DNA of 41,223 nt from Planctomycetes bacterium RIFCSPLOWO2_12_FULL_50_35 (GCA_001828605.1 MHZB01000066.1:1202-42424); one strand, 5' to 3'; positions 30,146 to 41,223 are shown, counted from the stretch's first letter. The notes: generated by a model not told the origin, from the letters alone. Translations and numbers: made by a program.

Positions 30146-32833
30146 TTAAGAGCGGGTGGATATTGATATAACGTCTTCCCAATTCTTCGGCCTATACTTC
30201 TCCCAATCTTCCTGCTTCACATAGAGCATTTTGTAAGCAATCTTTTTCTGCCGGGCATTTGCGTCATCACACCACTGAGCAAGCCTTTTAATCTTCAAAG
30301 GATCGTCTAAATCCTCACGCCCCTTAGTCTCAACGATATACACCATCTTTTCATCCGTTTTGACAAAGAAGTCTGGGTAATAATTCGCTATCGTCCCATC
30401 AGCATTTTTATAATCTATCTTAAAATGCACTTCATAATAATTCTTCGCAAACGAAACAACTTCGTCGTCACCCAATCGTTCAAGGAAATCCGCAAACTCA
30501 AGTTCAAACTGGCTATCCCCCACAATTCTATTAAACACACTTTTTTTCGGCACCAAATACGCTCTGTCATTGACAACAAAAGGACGGCTGTTGCTGACCT
30601 TAACGTAATTCTTGATTTCCGTATCGCCGACATCTTTCACAGTCAACGCATTGATCTCTTTCTTGAACGTTTGAATGATAGTCTTTGTAACTTCGATCTC
30701 TGAAAGATTCCTTAAAATGTTCTTATCTTCAAGATTAACCTCGGCTTCAAATAAATACGAATGAATAAATTCTTTAACCTTGCCAAATAATATGCCATAA
30801 CATCCGAAAAGCCGAAGTTCCCGCATAATGCTTTGAGCAAAGAACCCCACAACACTTTGATAATTCGGCTCAATATTGCTTTCTAAAATGGTGATGTGGT
30901 GAACCTTTTCTTCAACTACATGCTTAAACACAATCTCTCTTTGTTCCTGCTCGGTAAACGTCTTGACCTTCAACTTGTTATGCTGAAAACCTGCCACATT
31001 CAAACTCGCCAAGTCTTTATATTTCCGCTGAATCCTCGGTGTTAAAATTGGAAGCTCAATGTCGAGTTTTTTAATATCTTTCTTTGGATTATTATGATCA
31101 ATCTCGATGACGGTCGGTGTCACCGCCTTTGTCGTGCCGTCCATTTTTCGCTTTTCAAGCTCCACACCTTCCGCCTTGATAGATTCCACAAAATCCATAA
31201 ATGCGGGCGTTCCAATAACACTCACATATTCTTCAACATCTTCCCGTCCAAAAAACATCCGTCTCAAACCACGTCCGAGAGTCTGTTCCGGCAAAATATT
31301 TGAAGCCGCCGCATACGCCCGTAAGCCGACAATCGTTGTCACATTCTTGACATCCCATCCTTCTTTCAACATCAAAACAGAAACGATCACTTTATATGGG
31401 CTCTCGTTGCTATCAATAGTGTTTGCCTGCTCGCGCAATCTGTCCAGCTCTTCTTTAGCCCTGCCAGTTACTTTTTCTGAAATATCTCCGCTTTTATTAG
31501 TATGAATTGTTAAAACCTTTCCGTTCAAATCAGGATAATTCCGCTCCAAATACGCCTGCACCTCATCGCAGTTCTTTGTGTCATCCGTCATAATAAACAA
31601 AATCGCTTTTTTGCCGGTAGGCTCAAGCTCTTTATACGTCTTTCGCCACTCTTCAATACCAAGATTGATATAATCCTCATACTTTTCCGTAAAAAGAGCG
31701 CTCTGCTTTTCCTGTAACTTTGCCCGGCTTGCCTGATCCGGGAGCACGGGAGTCTTAACAACACCTTGATGAATAGCCTCTACAAGCGGATAATCGGAAA
31801 CTGTCTGCACAAACATCCCGCCGTTATTGTGTTTCGGTGTCGCCGTGCAGTCTATCTGTAAAGAAATGTGTCTGCCTTTTTGGAGTAACTTGTTATGGAT
31901 GTCTTGAATAGACTTAAACCACGCCATTTTAGGATCATGGATATGATGAGCTTCGTCGTTAAAAACAACTATCTCGTCAATATCTCTTACCACATTACTC
32001 AGCTCAACCAATGACTCGTTTGTTTTTGAGACCGGCTTTTGCCCTAAGAAATAATCCGTCAAGTCCTCATCGCTGAAAGACGCTTCTTTAACATCGCCCT
32101 CATAAACCCGGTGAATATTGGTAAGGAAAATATTCCCGGTAGGGGAAATCGCCGTCAAATCATCCTGCAAATGTAATGTTATCTGAAAATCATCCTGCCA
32201 GTTTCTGCCCTCATAGCCGTTATCCGGTAAAATGGGGTCTTGATAAAATATTTTCAACCCATCAAAATCTGTCTTAATCCGCTCAAGTACAATAATATTC
32301 GGCGTGATTAAAAGAAAATTGCGGGAAAGCTCTGAATCCGGCTCATAGAGTTTATGAAAATATGACCACGCAAGGAGCAGGCTCATTACCTTTGTCTTAC
32401 CGCTTCCGGTCGCCATCTTAATAACCAGCCGGAGCCAGTCCTCATCAAACATATTAGGGCTTACACGTCCCAGAGAATCAAACGGCAAAAGGTCATATTT
32501 GTTTCTTACACCCGCAACATCATAAAGCCAGATAATCGTTTCAACAGCTTCCCGCTGGGCAAAATAATAGCGAAATGAAAATGCATTGCCATCCGTACCA
32601 TAAACAAGATGTTCTTCTTTAAACCACCAGTTTAAAAGAGCCTTTGAGGTAGCACTCACTCCCTCATAGCCCTTATCCCGCCACTCCTTAACACGTTTCC
32701 TTAACTCCGGCACAAACGGCGGAAGCAGTTTTTCATAACCCTGTTCACGCAATGCCTCATCAGCCGGAAACCAGCGGATGTCCGGGTCTAAAATCGCAAA
32801 TTTATCTTTGGGAAAACCCTTGTGCAGTGCCAT
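30146..32833 (-). CDS. res: Type III restriction enzyme, Res subunit
   Basis: An 895-residue DEAD/DEAH-family helicase-nuclease. Walker A is ATGSGKT (141-147), motif II is DEAH (293-296), and motif VI is QTLGRGLRR. The C-terminal PD-(D/E)xK nuclease is visible as YYPDFFVK and VETKGRE, with D821, E835 and K837. All key residues are intact, so it should be an active ATP-dependent restriction subunit that translocates and cuts after meeting two inversely oriented sites with Mod. The ATG overlaps the mod stop codon by one base (TAATG), a tight coupling. Its DNA is AT-richer than neighbouring housekeeping genes, consistent with acquisition by transfer. Confidence 0.93.
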   Translation of the reverse strand: MALHKGFPKDKFAILDPDIRWFPADEALREQGYEKLLPPFVPELRKRVKEWRDKGYEGVSATSKALLNWWFKEEHLVYGTDGNAFSFRYYFAQREAVETIIWLYDVAGVRNKYDLLPFDSLGRVSPNMFDEDWLRLVIKMATGSGKTKVMSLLLAWSYFHKLYEPDSELSRNFLLITPNIIVLERIKTDFDGLKIFYQDPILPDNGYEGRNWQDDFQITLHLQDDLTAISPTGNIFLTNIHRVYEGDVKEASFSDEDLTDYFLGQKPVSKTNESLVELSNVVRDIDEIVVFNDEAHHIHDPKMAWFKSIQDIHNKLLQKGRHISLQIDCTATPKHNNGGMFVQTVSDYPLVEAIHQGVVKTPVLPDQASRAKLQEKQSALFTEKYEDYINLGIEEWRKTYKELEPTGKKAILFIMTDDTKNCDEVQAYLERNYPDLNGKVLTIHTNKSGDISEKVTGRAKEELDRLREQANTIDSNESPYKVIVSVLMLKEGWDVKNVTTIVGLRAYAAASNILPEQTLGRGLRRMFFGREDVEEYVSVIGTPAFMDFVESIKAEGVELEKRKMDGTTKAVTPTVIEIDHNNPKKDIKKLDIELPILTPRIQRKYKDLASLNVAGFQHNKLKVKTFTEQEQREIVFKHVVEEKVHHITILESNIEPNYQSVVGFFAQSIMRELRLFGCYGILFGKVKEFIHSYLFEAEVNLEDKNILRNLSEIEVTKTIIQTFKKEINALTVKDVGDTEIKNYVKVSNSRPFVVNDRAYLVPKKSVFNRIVGDSQFELEFADFLERLGDDEVVSFAKNYYEVHFKIDYKNADGTIANYYPDFFVKTDEKMVYIVETKGREDLDDPLKIKRLAQWCDDANARQKKIAYKMLYVKQEDWEKYRPKNWEDVISISTRS

Positions 32834-35031
32834 TATGGAATATTGACCTCAATTACTCTTGTCGTGTCATTGCCGAAAATATCAACCACCTTAACGGCAA
32901 TCTTGCGCCGTCCTTTAAAAACTTCCTTTTCGGCTGAAACAAGCTCAAGTTTTCTATCTTTTTTTGTCCTAAACGATTGCCATTCATTCTCAAAAATATA
33001 CCCACCAGTCCATTCTTCTTTTTCTTCTCCGGTCTTAGAATCAACCGAGCGGACAATCTCTTTTTTACTCTCCATATTAAAATCAACCGACCAGTAATCC
33101 ACCCAATCCGTCCATTTCTTCGTCAAAACTTCTTTAGTTACAACTGCTGTCTTTTTTTCTTTGGATACCTTGATGGCCTGTCCATTTTCAATAACAATCT
33201 TGCTCGAACCCTCTTTAAGCGAACCCTCTGTTTCTTCAACACTATCCTGATTATAAAAAACACTAAAGTCGTACAATTCAACCGCTATCGTTTTATTATT
33301 TCCACGCCCCTTGATGATCGGCTTTACTTCAATATAAGCAACGTCATAAAATTTAACATACCCCTTTTCAACCGCACGACGGTCAAAAACTTCCCGGGGA
33401 ATAACCTTAAATTGTACATCAACACCCTGACGGCTAAGCTCCGCAAAGTCAATCCCCATCTCATAATCAAAGCCTAAAACATCGAATTTCGTAATTCCTT
33501 TCTCCTGAGCTTCCTTTATTGCTTCATCAACAAAAGTGGATGATACTGGCGTATTGACAGGGCCGACTGCAACAAGCCGGTCACGTTTCTTACCGATAAA
33601 TGAATTATAAGAATCAACGGCTTGAGCGTTATAGGCGGAAAGAATCAGTTCAATAAACTGCCTTTCTTTGTTTTCTAAAATCTGCTGTTTTCCCTGTTCC
33701 CGAAAATCAACATCCACGTTGATATACTGCTCTCGCTCATACTTGCCGAGGTTAAGGATTTCAAACGCCCTGAAACTTTTACCCTCTTTTTTCATCTCCC
33801 GCTGAACCCGAATCAACCGCTTGCGGGATGTGTGAATCGCAAACCGCCCAAGGTCTGATCCTATCCATTTACGACCCAGCTTTTCGGCAACGGCTAATGT
33901 TGTTCCCGAACCGCAGAAGAAATCGGCGACAAGGTCGCCTTCATTAGTCGAAGTTAAAATTATTCTCTCAATAAGCTTTTCAGGCTTTTGGGTAGGATAA
34001 TCAACTCTCTCAACGGCCATAGAGTTTAATTCATTTATATCTGCCCAAATATCAGAAATAACCTCACCCTTTTGTTCGTCTAAATATCGAATTAAACCAA
34101 GTTTGCCAGAAGGATAATCATAAATCTTGCCCTCTTTTCTAAATTCTTTTATCGATTTCTCAGAATACATGCCGATATTATCAATCCTATATCTCCTTCC
34201 ATTTTTGTCTACTTGGTTAAATTTGGAATCAACATAGTCCTGATCATATTCTTTATAAAGTTTGTTGAAAATATATGTATCTCCCTTGGAATAAAAAATA
34301 ATAGAATCACACACTTTTGCTAATTGATTAGATATAGCCCTTGCTCCTCTTGGCGTTGACCTTTTCCATGAAATTTCATTTCGATAACATGATGTCCCAA
34401 AAATTTCATCCAACACAATGCGCACATGACTATTCAACCGCCAATCGCAATGGACATAAATACTACCGTCATCTGCTAACAATCCATGCATTAGCTTGAG
34501 GCGTTCATATATCATAGCAACAAAGCTATCCGCACCCTTGCCCCACGTGTCTCGGTAAGCGACTTCTTCAATAACCGACGGCTTTTTGGTAAAAGACTCA
34601 TCTCCAATCTCGACATTCATGGAGAAATCAGCCCCGACATCAAACGGCGGGTCAATGTAGATGAGCTTTAAACTACCCTGTTTTTCAATTTCTCGTCTCA
34701 TGGGTCCATTCTTTAAAGACGATAGAATCAGCTTGTTATCGCCCCAAATGAGCTTGTTTGTCCATCCTTTAATCTGCCTGCCGGAGGGGTCATAAAAATC
34801 AAAGGTTCCTTGATCCTTACCTTGTTTTATTCGTTCCGTACGAGGCTCATCAATATGTTCAATCGTCTGAAAAGGCAGGACAAGATTGCAGACTTCCTGT
34901 GTCTTGCCGTTCCACATAAGCTCAACTTCACGATCATCATCAAACAAAAGAAAGCGGTATTTATCAGGCAGGGGTTTGCCTTCCTGAATATATTTTATTG
35001 CGTCTCGTCTTTCGTTATCAGACAATCTCAT
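32833..35031 (-). CDS. mod: Type III modification DNA methyltransferase, Mod subunit
   Basis: A 732-residue beta-class amino-methyltransferase: catalytic motif IV DPPF (127-130) comes before the AdoMet motif I DFFCGSGTT (370-378), followed by RKWIGSDL. The target-recognition region (about 200-330) lies between them, as expected for type III Mod proteins, which methylate adenine on one strand. KLIWGDNKLILSSL and YPTQKPEKLIERII are typical family blocks. The long C-terminal part (400-732) carries no further motif that I recognise. It starts with ATG at 35031 with AGGA upstream. It is the first gene of the mod-res pair, and no phase-variable simple repeat is visible. Confidence 0.93.
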   Translation of the reverse strand: MRLSDNERRDAIKYIQEGKPLPDKYRFLLFDDDREVELMWNGKTQEVCNLVLPFQTIEHIDEPRTERIKQGKDQGTFDFYDPSGRQIKGWTNKLIWGDNKLILSSLKNGPMRREIEKQGSLKLIYIDPPFDVGADFSMNVEIGDESFTKKPSVIEEVAYRDTWGKGADSFVAMIYERLKLMHGLLADDGSIYVHCDWRLNSHVRIVLDEIFGTSCYRNEISWKRSTPRGARAISNQLAKVCDSIIFYSKGDTYIFNKLYKEYDQDYVDSKFNQVDKNGRRYRIDNIGMYSEKSIKEFRKEGKIYDYPSGKLGLIRYLDEQKGEVISDIWADINELNSMAVERVDYPTQKPEKLIERIILTSTNEGDLVADFFCGSGTTLAVAEKLGRKWIGSDLGRFAIHTSRKRLIRVQREMKKEGKSFRAFEILNLGKYEREQYINVDVDFREQGKQQILENKERQFIELILSAYNAQAVDSYNSFIGKKRDRLVAVGPVNTPVSSTFVDEAIKEAQEKGITKFDVLGFDYEMGIDFAELSRQGVDVQFKVIPREVFDRRAVEKGYVKFYDVAYIEVKPIIKGRGNNKTIAVELYDFSVFYNQDSVEETEGSLKEGSSKIVIENGQAIKVSKEKKTAVVTKEVLTKKWTDWVDYWSVDFNMESKKEIVRSVDSKTGEEKEEWTGGYIFENEWQSFRTKKDRKLELVSAEKEVFKGRRKIAVKVVDIFGNDTTRVIEVNIP

Positions 35032-37624: not shown

Positions 37625-37933
37625 TTATTCAACAAGTCTTTTCTTACCGTCTGTAATGCGAAAACAACTGAGCTTCTCGTGGATAGACGACCAAGAGCGC
37701 CTGGCAAAAATAATGGGGACGTTTCGCGCCTGTGCCTCCTTCTTCACCTTGTGAGTAATATTATGATTCACGTAGTCGTGGAGAAGTATAACCAGATCCA
37801 TCCCCTCTGGAATCCCATTCCTGATACCCCTGTTATCCCTGCCGGTCACATGGTCTATCCTGGTAGCGCCTAACTTACTAAGCTCCTTGGGGATAGAACC
37901 CAGGTGGTCACCGCCTACGATTAGAACAGACAT
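37625..37933 (-). CDS. DUF2325-family protein
   Basis: A 102-residue protein of the DUF2325 family, seen in many anaerobic and metal-reducing bacteria. The start SVLIVGGDHLGSIPKEL resembles a nucleotide-binding glycine loop, followed by TRIDHVTGRDN, the segment PEGMDLVILLHDYVNH and a C-terminal KKEAQARNVPIIFARRS. The function is unproven; the fold looks like a Rossmann-type domain. It lies between the response regulator (40 bp upstream) and the 32-residue peptide (30 bp downstream), all minus strand. Confidence 0.75.
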   Translation of the reverse strand: MSVLIVGGDHLGSIPKELSKLGATRIDHVTGRDNRGIRNGIPEGMDLVILLHDYVNHNITHKVKKEAQARNVPIIFARRSWSSIHEKLSCFRITDGKKRLVE

Positions 37934-37972: not shown

Positions 37973-38356
37973 TTACTGCAACATGTTGGCAAACTGGGGT
38001 CTCTCTGACCGTGCAAGAAGCCTCCTGACTGAAGATACCAACTGACTTCTATCGTCAGACTTGACAAGACACCGGTCTGCACTCCAGGCCATGTAGCTGT
38101 CCTTGTACGACTGGCAGTCTGTGTACATTATCACGGGAAGCCCCGGATGCGATGATTTGATCATCATAACCAGGTCCGTACCGCTTACGCCGGGTAGAAT
38201 GCCGTCTACTATTACAAGGTCGGGAGGATTTGTTACTATCTCCCTGACCGCTACGAACCCATCGGAAAGGCACCTTACGTGATAGCCTTCCTTCACTAAT
38301 TCATCGGCATATAACCTGCCGGATTCTTCTCTATCCGCTATTAGAATTCGTTTCAT
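37973..38356 (-). CDS. Single-domain response regulator (CheY-like receiver)
   Basis: A 127-residue receiver domain with no output domain. Key residues are all present: acidic D8 (ILIADREE), phospho-acceptor D51 (LVIVDGILPGVSG), T79 (VIMYTD) and K99 (CLVKSD). The first acidic pair reads ADREE rather than the usual DD/DE, which may weaken magnesium binding. The start at 38356 is preferred over one eight codons upstream because the product then begins at beta-1 (MKRILI), with GGGA upstream. No histidine kinase is in the window. It lies just after the flavoprotein operon, 71 bp from the membrane protein. Confidence 0.85.
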   Translation of the reverse strand: MKRILIADREESGRLYADELVKEGYHVRCLSDGFVAVREIVTNPPDLVIVDGILPGVSGTDLVMMIKSSHPGLPVIMYTDCQSYKDSYMAWSADRCLVKSDDRSQLVSSVRRLLARSERPQFANMLQ

Positions 38357-38427
38357 CAAGGTTTCCCATTTCTTTTTCATACATTAATTGAGACTGAGAC
38401 TCTATCACACATATATGCCAAAAAATT

Positions 38428-38961
38428 TTAGTCTTCAAAAGACCTGCCTCTCTCATCTTCCACTCTGCCCCACATCTCATACATGGGACACGCTATGTAT
38501 ACGATAATCACCGAACCAAGCAATACATAAGAGGCAATAAGCCACACTGAGAAACCGGGGGAAACAAACCTGACAAGCCAGGGGCCTGTGAGATTCAATA
38601 TTATGCCCACAAAGGCCGTAATATGTGTCGCCGCCCTCGCTCTATCCGGCACAGTAGTCATATTCAGTATACGAGACAGCACAAAGAATATCAGCGGTAT
38701 CGTAAATGCGTGCACATGCAGCACCTCTGCCAGTTCCCTGGAACTCTTCGGAAACATCAATCCCTCCTCCGGCAGCGGTGCATCCTCCGGCTCATCTTCC
38801 CTTACATTACCAAGATAGTGCAAGACCACCTTGTCCGGCGAAAAACTCGTCCTCTGGTAAAACATCCAGAACGCAATACCCATACTCAGACCCATAAGTA
38901 TGAGGAAGAAGCTTATCGCCAGCTTGTTACTTAAGGAAGCTGAGTTCAGGCGTTTCGGCAT
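38428..38961 (-). CDS. Four-helix membrane protein with clustered histidines
   Basis: A 177-residue protein, not assigned to a family. Four hydrophobic helices are visible (about 13-35, 84-100, 111-130, 138-158). Histidines H48, H82, H84 and H113 sit at or near helix ends, and LHVHAF and ATHITAF could be heme or metal ligands, though this is only inference. Between helices 1 and 2 is an acidic extracytoplasmic loop of about 45 residues. The gene overlaps the end of the flavoprotein gene by 35 bases, so translation is coupled. Given the neighbour, it may pass electrons between the quinone pool and the periplasmic flavin. Confidence 0.6.
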   Translation of the reverse strand: MPKRLNSASLSNKLAISFFLILMGLSMGIAFWMFYQRTSFSPDKVVLHYLGNVREDEPEDAPLPEEGLMFPKSSRELAEVLHVHAFTIPLIFFVLSRILNMTTVPDRARAATHITAFVGIILNLTGPWLVRFVSPGFSVWLIASYVLLGSVIIVYIACPMYEMWGRVEDERGRSFED

Positions 38962-40567
38962 TGTCTTCGACTACTGCCAATTCTTTCTTGAATAATTTAT
39001 TCATAGACTTGGTGAGCGTAAAACCTATCTCACCTCCATCACCTTCGCAGGCAAATATCCCACCCACCCCCTCGCGACCGTCCAGAAGCTCTGCGCCGCG
39101 CTTAGGACCCAAGATAAAGGCCCCCGTGGATAATGCGTCAGCTTCCATAGCGCTGTCCGCCGTCACCGTCACGCTGATCAGCCCCTGGGCAGGCATACCG
39201 GTTCTTGGGTCAATTATATGTGAATATCTCTTACCGTCTATCATGAAAAACCTCTCGTAATCCCCGGAAGTTGCGACACCCTTATTTTCAAGCTCCAGGT
39301 ATCCAAGGAGAAAATCCCTTTGTCTGGGATGCTGCACGCCTATCTTCCAGGCGCTGGCCCCGGGAGGACGTCCAAGGGCATATATATTACCCCCGAGGTT
39401 TACCAGGGCCGACGTTATCCCACGCCTTTTCAGCACCTCAACCGCTTTATCGGCGGCGTATCCCTTCCCGATACCACCCAGGTCTATCTTTGTGCCGGGA
39501 TGCCTAAATGCGATTAATTTAGAGTCACCCTGCCCCTGGATATCTATGTTCTTGTAGGACACGGCGGGCAGTATGGACTTTATCTCATCCATATTCGGCA
39601 CCCTAACCTTGCCTGTATAAAACCCCCATTTGTCAACCAGGGGTTCGACGGTTATATCAAAGGCCCCCTCCGTAAGAGTGCTGTAGTCCAGGGAATCTTC
39701 AATCACACCCAAAAGCTCCGGGGCGCACTTAGTCGGTGCACGTGACGCCTCCCGGTTTATACGGGAGAGTTCGCTTGAAGACTTATAATTGCTCATCAGC
39801 CCATCAAGCCTCTCCATCTCTTCAAATGCCTCCTTTATCGCTTGGGCTGCGTTTTCTCTATCGGAACCGTAGACGGAAATGTCCGCATACGTCCCCATAA
39901 TGAGCCTTGTCTCTTTAAGCAGCGCCGGCGATCCTTGCGACGACGTCTTTGACACCAGTGGGGAGGCGTTCTCCAGACCCCTCTTCCCGCTCAAATAAAA
40001 CTCGTCCACCACCCCCAACACCTTCTTTACCCCGCTACACATCGTAACCACGGACATGGTGGCACCAGTAATATTTATAATGTCCCTGTTTATCTTTACG
40101 GGGCTGCGGACGGATTTACCTATAAACTGGTGCAAGAACCGCCTCCTCGCCACATCCCCGCCCCGGCTCTCCCTATAAATCAGGACTGCCAGGTCCTTTA
40201 TCTTGCCGTTCGGCTCTACCGCCACGATGAAGGTAAATGGATGAAACTTGCCTACCTCCTCGGTTATGATGGCGTAGCCCTGAACTTCACCCTCTTCTTT
40301 GCCGATGAACACCTCAAAGCCCTGCTCGTATATCTTCCTCTTCAGGCGCTCTTCAAGGGCGTTTTTCTCCTCGTCCGTAAGGATAATCACGTCCCTGAGT
40401 ATCTCATCGCAGTCAGGAAACATCTCTGAAAGGGCCTGCTCCTGGGTAAGAAAGACCTGCGGCTGGAAGTTGTCAGGAGGTTCCAGCTCTTGCGATACCT
40501 GCGCCAAGACATCTGCCGCTGACAAGAATGCCATAAAGATAATTAAAGGCACGTGTCTCAAACTCAT
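38927..40567 (-). CDS. apbE: FMN-binding domain fused to ApbE flavin transferase
   Basis: A 546-residue exported protein. A signal peptide (1-22) is followed by an FMN-binding domain of the NqrC/RnfG type (about 60-195) with ITGATMSV: T170 is the expected residue for covalent FMN through a phosphoester. After a linker comes an ApbE domain (about 218-525) with LIMGTYADI, GAFDIT (301-306), IDLGGIGKGYAADKA (361-375), VNLGGNIYALG, ATSGDYERFF, HIIDPRTG and DALSTGAFILG. ApbE uses FAD to attach FMN to such domains. Having substrate and enzyme in one chain implies self-flavinylation in the periplasm. Its start overlaps the lipoprotein stop by four bases (ATGA) and its end overlaps the next gene. Confidence 0.9.
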   Translation of the reverse strand: MSLRHVPLIIFMAFLSAADVLAQVSQELEPPDNFQPQVFLTQEQALSEMFPDCDEILRDVIILTDEEKNALEERLKRKIYEQGFEVFIGKEEGEVQGYAIITEEVGKFHPFTFIVAVEPNGKIKDLAVLIYRESRGGDVARRRFLHQFIGKSVRSPVKINRDIINITGATMSVVTMCSGVKKVLGVVDEFYLSGKRGLENASPLVSKTSSQGSPALLKETRLIMGTYADISVYGSDRENAAQAIKEAFEEMERLDGLMSNYKSSSELSRINREASRAPTKCAPELLGVIEDSLDYSTLTEGAFDITVEPLVDKWGFYTGKVRVPNMDEIKSILPAVSYKNIDIQGQGDSKLIAFRHPGTKIDLGGIGKGYAADKAVEVLKRRGITSALVNLGGNIYALGRPPGASAWKIGVQHPRQRDFLLGYLELENKGVATSGDYERFFMIDGKRYSHIIDPRTGMPAQGLISVTVTADSAMEADALSTGAFILGPKRGAELLDGREGVGGIFACEGDGGEIGFTLTKSMNKLFKKELAVVEDNAETPELSFLK

Positions 40568-41031
40568 CTAACTCCTTTTTGAGTCAGCAATTCAACATTC
40601 TCCCCGATAGCATTGAGCACCTCCCGTTCCAAATCTCCTGTGGACTCCATCCTTGTCCATCGGTAGGCCTGTGTGCCGCCGGGGCCCTTTTCTTCCACAA
40701 TTGCGTAGGCGCTCACCTCTGTAACCCGTCCTTTGTCCTTGATGCGCAGCGTGAGCCTATGCCTCTCCTCCCATGGTACTCTTCGCACTCCCATGGATTT
40801 CTCACCTTCCCTGTAGAGCCACTGGGTTACTATCTTCCCCTGGCCATTGTCCGTCTTTTCAAGCTCCACCTGCCTTGCCTCAAACATCTTTATGGTTGCA
40901 TCCCATACCACGTCAAATGGGGCCTGAAAGGTCTCGGAGTACGTATGCGGCTTCCCTCCAAGTCCTCCCAGGCCGGCACAGCCAGCGATAACCAGTGGCA
41001 AGACAATCCACAAGAGCCTTAAGAGGCACAT
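40564..41031 (-). CDS. Lipoprotein upstream of the flavoprotein
   Basis: A 155-residue protein with a lipobox: LVIAGC, acylated C18. The mature part begins AGLGGLGGKPHTYSETFQAPFDVVWDATIKMFEARQ, a style of small periplasmic lipoproteins with an alpha/beta fold (comparable to DUF3576 or BamC-type proteins, not assigned). There are no heme motifs. It overlaps the ApbE fusion start by ATGA and follows the barrel gene by 69 bp. It probably anchors to the outer or inner membrane next to the flavoprotein. The start at 41031 is the only one giving the signal sequence. Confidence 0.8.
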   Translation of the reverse strand: MCLLRLLWIVLPLVIAGCAGLGGLGGKPHTYSETFQAPFDVVWDATIKMFEARQVELEKTDNGQGKIVTQWLYREGEKSMGVRRVPWEERHRLTLRIKDKGRVTEVSAYAIVEEKGPGGTQAYRWTRMESTGDLEREVLNAIGENVELLTQKGVR

Positions 41032-41100
41032 AGCACTTTCATAAGCATCGTGTCAAAAAATCCATTTTACTAGAGAAACTCCCTTCCTTACAAAGGATTT

Positions 41101-41223
41101 TTAGAAATACGACGCCACACCGAATACGAAGGTATTGTCGGCTTCCGTACTTCGCCGATTTTCATGGTCCCATTCATAATCCACCTTGAAGACGGTGTCC
41201 TCCGTATAGCGGAAGTTAAATCC
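41101..41223 (-). CDS. C-terminal end of an outer-membrane beta-barrel protein (partial)
   Basis: The last 40 codons of a gene that continues beyond the right edge. The visible residues alternate polar and aromatic/hydrophobic residues (FNFRYTEDTVFKVDYEWDHE, then a turn, then NTFVFGVASYF) and the chain ends in Phe, the BAM recognition signal of outer-membrane barrels. It reads in the same direction as, and lies 69 bp upstream of, the lipoprotein gene, so it probably starts the same operon. Which barrel family is not visible. Confidence 0.75.
   Translation of the reverse strand, partial: GFNFRYTEDTVFKVDYEWDHENRRSTEADNTFVFGVASYF

Follow-up and report, generated by a model that had tools for sequence, protein, structure and literature searches.

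What does a flavin transferase fused to its own predicted acceptor domain do in an operon that also encodes an outer-membrane barrel, a lipoprotein and a small membrane protein? The window, by which we mean the whole stretch of 41,223 nucleotides analysed here, corresponds to positions 1202-42424 of contig C66 in the 2.0 Mb, 90% complete genome (G000) of Planctomycetes bacterium RIFCSPLOWO2_12_FULL_50_35. Since this genome carries the hydrazine synthase alpha gene and has its relatives in an order that holds Brocadia, Jettenia and Scalindua together with other Planctomycetota, the source organism is an anammox bacterium, placed in a family (f1) distinct from those of Brocadia and Scalindua.

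The operon and its flavoprotein

The genes considered here all lie on the minus strand, in the order barrel C-terminus, lipoprotein, FMN_bind-ApbE fusion, four-helix membrane protein (named 4TM in the following), response regulator, DUF2325 protein and GlmS. Reading frames overlap by 4 bp (ATGA) between lipoprotein and fusion, and by 35 bp between fusion and 4TM, confirming the initial annotation, which had described the first four genes as co-directional and close or overlapping. The stand-alone response-regulator receiver just downstream of 4TM (37973-38380, minus strand) was considered as a member of the module and rejected, because relatives have no response regulator at the corresponding site; it probably lies outside the module. 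The DUF2325 gene (37625-37933, minus strand) is a conserved neighbour in the window's family, and DUF2325 is found near the lipoprotein and fusion genes in three families of the order (L052, L053, L060, L064, L177, L178 and L180-L182). Elsewhere in the window (30146-35031) an N6/N4 DNA methyltransferase adjoins a helicase whose C-terminus is TnsA-like/restriction endonuclease-like; the two resemble a restriction-modification pair of a type III-like kind.

The fusion (38927-40567, minus strand) is a secreted protein of 546 residues with a signal peptide and no lipobox, and is on this sequence reading expected to be periplasmic. Its RnfG/NqrC-like FMN_bind domain (residues 110-184; 40016-40240, minus strand) scores 23.9 bits with PF04205 against the Pfam cut-off of 22, and its ApbE FMN transferase domain (residues 224-501; 39065-39898, minus strand) is full-length and above the curated cut-off (PF02424, 311 bits, E 9.6e-93). 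The predicted FMN acceptor is T170 (codon 40058-40060, minus strand) in the motif DIINITGAT, and this D162-IINI-TGAT stretch including T170 is invariant in 18 relatives. When conservation is judged by alignment, the acceptor Thr is also retained in distant members of the phylum, as GAT or in one case as GST, the sole exception being a second FMN_bind repeat in L166; the strict acceptor-motif pattern alone gives 52 of 59. The protein thus combines the domain and the D-x(n)-[ST]GA[ST] acceptor of the FMN_bind type of flavinylation substrate. In the other half of the chain, the ApbE domain is accompanied by its active-site residues (the His of the H-I-I-D motif and the Asp/Thr metal region): K368, H450, D477 and T481 align with FmnB and E. 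coli ApbE, and these aligned columns are retained in most relatives. An AlphaFold model of the fusion (18 sequences, pLDDT 79) matches FmnB and ApbE structures with E ~1e-28, while its N-terminal part matches RnfG/NqrC with E 1e-6 to 1e-4. We infer that the fusion is covalently flavinylated at T170.

The fusion shares the FMN_bind fold and the TGAT acceptor motif with NqrC and RnfG. It differs from them in having a predicted signal peptide instead of a membrane anchor, in being fused to ApbE and in the absence of Nqr/Rnf neighbours, and its rnfG score of 23.9 bits is far from the equivalog cut-off of 102. The initial annotation was right to distinguish the operon from an NqrC or RnfG setting, the genome having a separate Rnf elsewhere. 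A flavin transferase and its acceptor are also joined in one polypeptide in the fumarate reductase of T. brucei (PMC12052999) and in DUF2271-ApbE proteins (PMC8238504), from which the present fusion is distinguished by its FMN_bind acceptor, by being secreted and by containing the only ApbE found in the genome.

Conservation of the module and the probable reach of its ApbE

The distribution of the module was followed in a phylum-wide sample of 294 genomes, with the distribution outside Planctomycetota covered through plasmids only. 4TM was found in 57 of the 294. At the 20 4TM loci outside the order, FMN_bind is in the same operon or adjacent in 19, the exception being a short contig; ApbE is also present in 16, mostly as a fusion, and a barrel of the same family in 15 (E 1e-17 to 1e-140). 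Homologous barrels stand directly upstream of the fusion in relatives. The order of the genes is kept in relatives from high to approximately 20% identity, showing that the gene set is not due to chance. Two doubts raised in the initial annotation, that the neighbours might not be conserved with the fusion and that the barrel might belong to an unrelated transport gene, are removed by these counts, and the co-occurrence of 4TM with ApbE/FMN_bind fusions, which it had suggested searching for, extends across the phylum.

The constant partner of 4TM is FMN_bind, since at two loci (L154 and L156) 4TM adjoins an FMN_bind protein without ApbE; at two others (L162 and L166) ApbE is a separate gene. 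Within the order, the arrangement fusion followed by 4TM with the lipoprotein upstream is found in three families. Scalinduaceae have retained the lipoprotein followed by the fusion, with 4TM relocated beside murJ, and in five of their loci (L044, L046, L067, L068 and L069) 4TM occurs a second time, flanked by a DtxR/FeoA-domain regulator and a VIT1-like gene. This paralogue has no adjoining flavoprotein, and FeoB lies downstream of it in L044 and L046. Full-length fusions without a detected 4TM were seen in two genomes (G121 and G186).

A search with PF02424 found a single ApbE in each of four genomes (G000, G001, G002 and G004), in every case the fusion of the operon; G029, a genome in a single contig, has two ApbEs, both of them fusions, and three Rnf/Nqr loci. 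G000 is about 10% incomplete, and the result of one ApbE is the same in relatives that are 93-100% complete. All five genomes also carry NqrB/RnfD-type subunits and separate FMN_bind proteins. The Rnf of G000 lies on another contig (C8) and is devoid of an ApbE of its own, and its RnfG reads ...VTAITGATITT... Because no ApbE other than the fused one was found in G000 and an RnfG with TGAT is nevertheless present, the simplest reading is that the fused ApbE would flavinylate RnfG in trans too. This changes the initial annotation on one point: the term self-flavinylating had implied a private arrangement, whereas the only transferase of the genome would serve RnfG as well. In G005, from the same family (94% complete, 10 contigs), neither fusion, 4TM nor ApbE was found and an RnfG with TGAT is present, which may reflect either a locus lost in an assembly gap or a different flavinylation of Rnf in that organism.

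The single ApbE could also be taken to mean that the operon is mainly a flavin-transferase unit that supplies Rnf/Nqr, with the fused FMN_bind domain used for docking or FMN storage and no electron transfer of its own. The sole ApbE in four genomes and the two fusions of G029, a genome with three Rnf/Nqr loci, are in keeping with this. It is nevertheless very unlikely in our judgment, considering that FMN_bind stays with 4TM also where the operon lacks ApbE or has it as a separate gene, and that the acceptor Thr is retained.

The membrane protein and the barrel

4TM (38428-38961, minus strand) is a four-helix inner-membrane protein of 177 residues without a Pfam family. Its model (monomer pLDDT 81) has four long helical regions (residues 10-38, 74-100, 106-131 and 135-165), and the positive-inside rule places H82-V-H84 (38710-38718, minus strand) at the predicted periplasmic end of helix 2. 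H82 and H84 are the only invariant residues among 25 divergent copies of 4TM; among 29 Brocadiales sequences many residues are invariant. A third histidine is common at position 97, 13 residues further on from H84: 18 of the 19 sequences from outside the order have it, whereas every sequence of the anammox order has Arg there. A similar spacing separates the two haem ligands that share a helix in b-type cytochromes, and for this reason we propose that haem b is held in a 4TM dimer. The invariant H82 and H84 together with the usual third His are suggestive of a b-type cytochrome, and the HxH...R that stands in place of HxH...H in the anammox order would bear on the number of haems or on a quinone site.

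No relationship to a described family was found for 4TM. A Pfam scan of 25 family members gave chance-level matches to other families only; none of the 25 matched the NapH-, MsrQ-, PepSY-, DsbD- or NqrB-like donors or DUF4405, and neither a Foldseek search of the PDB with the monomer model nor a PDB profile search gave anything significant. 4TM thus matches none of the described flavinylation-linked membrane proteins, and if it acts as proposed the known flavinylation-linked electron donors gain a further family of membrane proteins. The DUF4405 cytochromes and FezC are likewise small all-helical membrane proteins with histidines as conserved residues; haem b binding and a link to apbE are known for some of them, and the haem sites of FezC have been proposed to form via homodimerisation (PMC10979944). 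They differ from 4TM in carrying four histidines over six helices, as opposed to HxH...H over four.

A role of 4TM as electron donor is supported by operons on alphaproteobacterial plasmids (Methylocystis heyeri, Bradyrhizobium, Novosphingobium and Sphingomonas; L194-L197) that have the same functional order and look like equivalent sets in which another membrane donor has taken the place of 4TM. On the plasmids of Methylocystis and Bradyrhizobium the order is barrel, FMN_bind, ApbE and a small membrane protein with four histidines, and these two barrels are homologous to that of the operon (E ~1e-15). Novosphingobium and Sphingomonas have the same order with another protein in the place of the barrel (DUF6662 in the annotated sphingomonad). 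Unlike in our operon, FMN_bind and ApbE are separate genes, and homology between 4TM and the four-histidine protein was not detected; the plasmid search with the window's 4TM also found nothing. The membrane proteins of L194-L197 are 139-148 residues long, the one from Methylocystis having a weak cytochrome b561 match, and in the Methylocystis operon genes for a multicopper oxidase and a ferritin-like protein follow.

At the other end of the operon, the window contains the C-terminal end of an OprO/OprP-like outer-membrane barrel (41101-41223, minus strand, stop at 41101) with a terminal Phe. The initial annotation had suggested reading rightward to see the barrel: the frame does continue past the window, giving 194 readable residues (L002:3303-3887), but the contig ends 462 bp beyond the window's edge, leaving the 5' part of the gene off the contig. 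A run of N interrupts the reading near its end (nine X in the translation). The terminal Phe is invariant in the barrel family, which aligns across the phylum and into Alphaproteobacteria. When its profile was compared with the PDB, OprO and OprP were matched over the C-terminal third (4rjx, 3e-6; 2o4v, 5.5e-5); the profile similarity and the C-terminal aromatic residue are shared with Porin O/P, although full-length homologues of the barrel had no Pfam family above cut-off, Porin O/P included. The barrel further differs from OprO/OprP by an N-terminal coiled-coil-like stretch and by its place in a flavoprotein operon. The flavinylated DUF3570 was considered as an identity for the barrel and rejected, there being no Pfam match and no conserved motif. 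The lipoprotein between barrel and fusion (40564-41031, minus strand) has the lipobox IAGC followed by Ala, from which sorting to the outer membrane is expected; its BamC/NlpB-like domain is a weak match to PF06804 (E 7e-5, 22.3 bits, below the cut-off of 25). It is the least constant part of the operon and mostly confined to the order, with one match outside (L157).

The initial annotation had seen in these genes a trans-envelope electron path, and a flavin-based conduit from quinol via 4TM and the flavoprotein to the lipoprotein-barrel pair, and from there across the outer membrane to an extracellular acceptor, is the corresponding explanation. It draws on the constant operon partnership of barrel and flavoprotein, which reaches as far as the alphaproteobacterial plasmids with a homologous barrel, and on the extracellular electron transfer reported for anammox bacteria (PMC7188810). 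We regard it as unlikely, however, because the barrel resembles OprO/OprP, the barrel family has no conserved [ST]GA[ST] motif, and no CxxCH is found in the four gene products (the barrel as far as readable, its 5' part being off the contig), among which there is consequently no multihaem c-type cytochrome to form a porin-cytochrome conduit with the barrel. The anammox study itself invoked a CymA-like protein together with a porin-cytochrome complex, and added riboflavin had no effect (PMC7188810). For the same reasons the barrel is more likely a substrate porin than an electron conduit, and its cargo would, on the reading of the operon given below, presumably be a metal chelate. What stands from the initial annotation is the compact extracytoplasmic flavin electron-transfer operon, with neighbours that are conserved together with the fusion.

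The link to iron

A connection that the initial annotation did not contain is the one to iron genes, namely FeoB, the DtxR/FeoA regulator and the VIT1-like gene. With true FeoB defined by E below 1e-16, it lies within 6.5 kb of 4TM in 14 of 44 genomes, where 0.16 is expected from genome size, and when counted by family in 5 of 19 (0.08 expected), so that the association is approximately 85 times expectation; 9 of the 14 genomes belong to one family. The genes are arranged in four independent ways: FeoB, barrel, fusion and 4TM in G184 and G237; fusion, 4TM and FeoB in G104; barrel, fusion and FeoB with a divergent 4TM in family f21; and DtxR/FeoA, 4TM, VIT1-like gene and FeoB in G015. These independent orders suggest that the proximity of FeoB reflects function and not descent. 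FeoB was not found beside the module in the window's own family or in Brocadiaceae, and a true FeoB was not found in the 90% complete G000.

The lack of FeoB beside the module in the window's family and in Brocadiaceae fits with a periplasmic carrier for some other acceptor, such as a respiratory or nitrogen-cycle oxidoreductase or redox homeostasis, for which the proximity of FeoB would be incidental or secondary. That the fusion can take other partners is indicated by the different gene contexts of its paralogues in Brocadiaceae (L184, 5841-7481; L189; L192), where a second FMN_bind-ApbE fusion stands beside a metal-type P-ATPase (HMA_2 domain), a TlpA-like thioredoxin and c-type cytochromes. 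An association so far above expectation in five families and with differing gene orders argues against this explanation, which we consider improbable.

With a probability of about one half, we instead read the operon as an extracytoplasmic reductase that works with flavin and has a porin of its own, its task being most likely the periplasmic reduction of Fe(III), or of a similar metal chelate, for iron uptake. Ferric reduction for uptake is favoured over an outer-membrane wire because FeoB is near 4TM, because the barrel looks like one that admits substrates and because a multihaem protein is lacking. The porin would admit the chelate. Electrons would reach 4TM from the inner membrane, with quinol as their probable source and perhaps by way of a haem b bound by the HxH motif in the dimer, and would move on to the FMN attached covalently to T170 of the periplasmic fusion. 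Once reduced, this flavin would in turn reduce Fe(III), and Fe(II) would enter via FeoB or a similar carrier, while the ApbE half would attach FMN to its own FMN_bind domain and also to RnfG. The gene set and its order, the domains, the acceptor motif, the ApbE active-site residues, their conservation, the proximity of FeoB in relatives and the single-copy ApbE are read directly from sequence, and it is from these that we infer the direction of the electrons, the binding of haem or quinol and iron as the substrate. Speaking against this reading are the results that FeoB was not seen next to the module in the window's family and in Brocadiaceae nor anywhere in G000, the weight of one family among the FeoB-linked genomes, the failure of 4TM to match a known structure, its separation from the fusion in Scalinduaceae and the fusions without a detected 4TM in G121 and G186.

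A wider claim, which we put forward tentatively, is that 4TM represents a hitherto undescribed class of quinol (or haem) donor in the inner membrane, and that with the OprO/P-like porin and the fusion it makes up a module dedicated to ferric reduction throughout Planctomycetota, which in anammox bacteria also carries the only flavin transferase of the cell. If so, the maturation of Rnf in anammox bacteria would be tied to an iron-linked operon, and loss of the sole apbE is predicted to have consequences for iron reduction as well as for Rnf. The great abundance of haem enzymes in anammox bacteria makes them dependent on iron, and the module would be a concrete candidate for a flavin-based reductase in them. 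Neither such a reductase for anammox bacteria nor the combination of barrel, fusion and 4TM was found in the open-access literature searched.

We rate the operon as a variant of flavinylation-based electron transfer and not as a separate category. The NapH-, MsrQ-, PepSY-, DsbD- and NQR/RNF-like systems described by Meheust et al. 2021 (PMC8238504) likewise consist of ApbE, an extracytosolic FMN-binding acceptor and a small membrane donor. The operon departs from them in having a 4TM outside their Pfam families, an OprO/P-like porin and ApbE and its substrate in one chain; porins and planctomycetes are unmentioned in the main text of that paper. VIT1 was there reported to be colocalised with MsrQ-like, PepSY-like, DUF3570 and NQR/RNF-like flavinylation systems, and assimilatory iron reduction was proposed (PMC8238504). 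With these MsrQ/PepSY and VIT1 assimilatory iron reductases the present module shares the iron transporter genes nearby.
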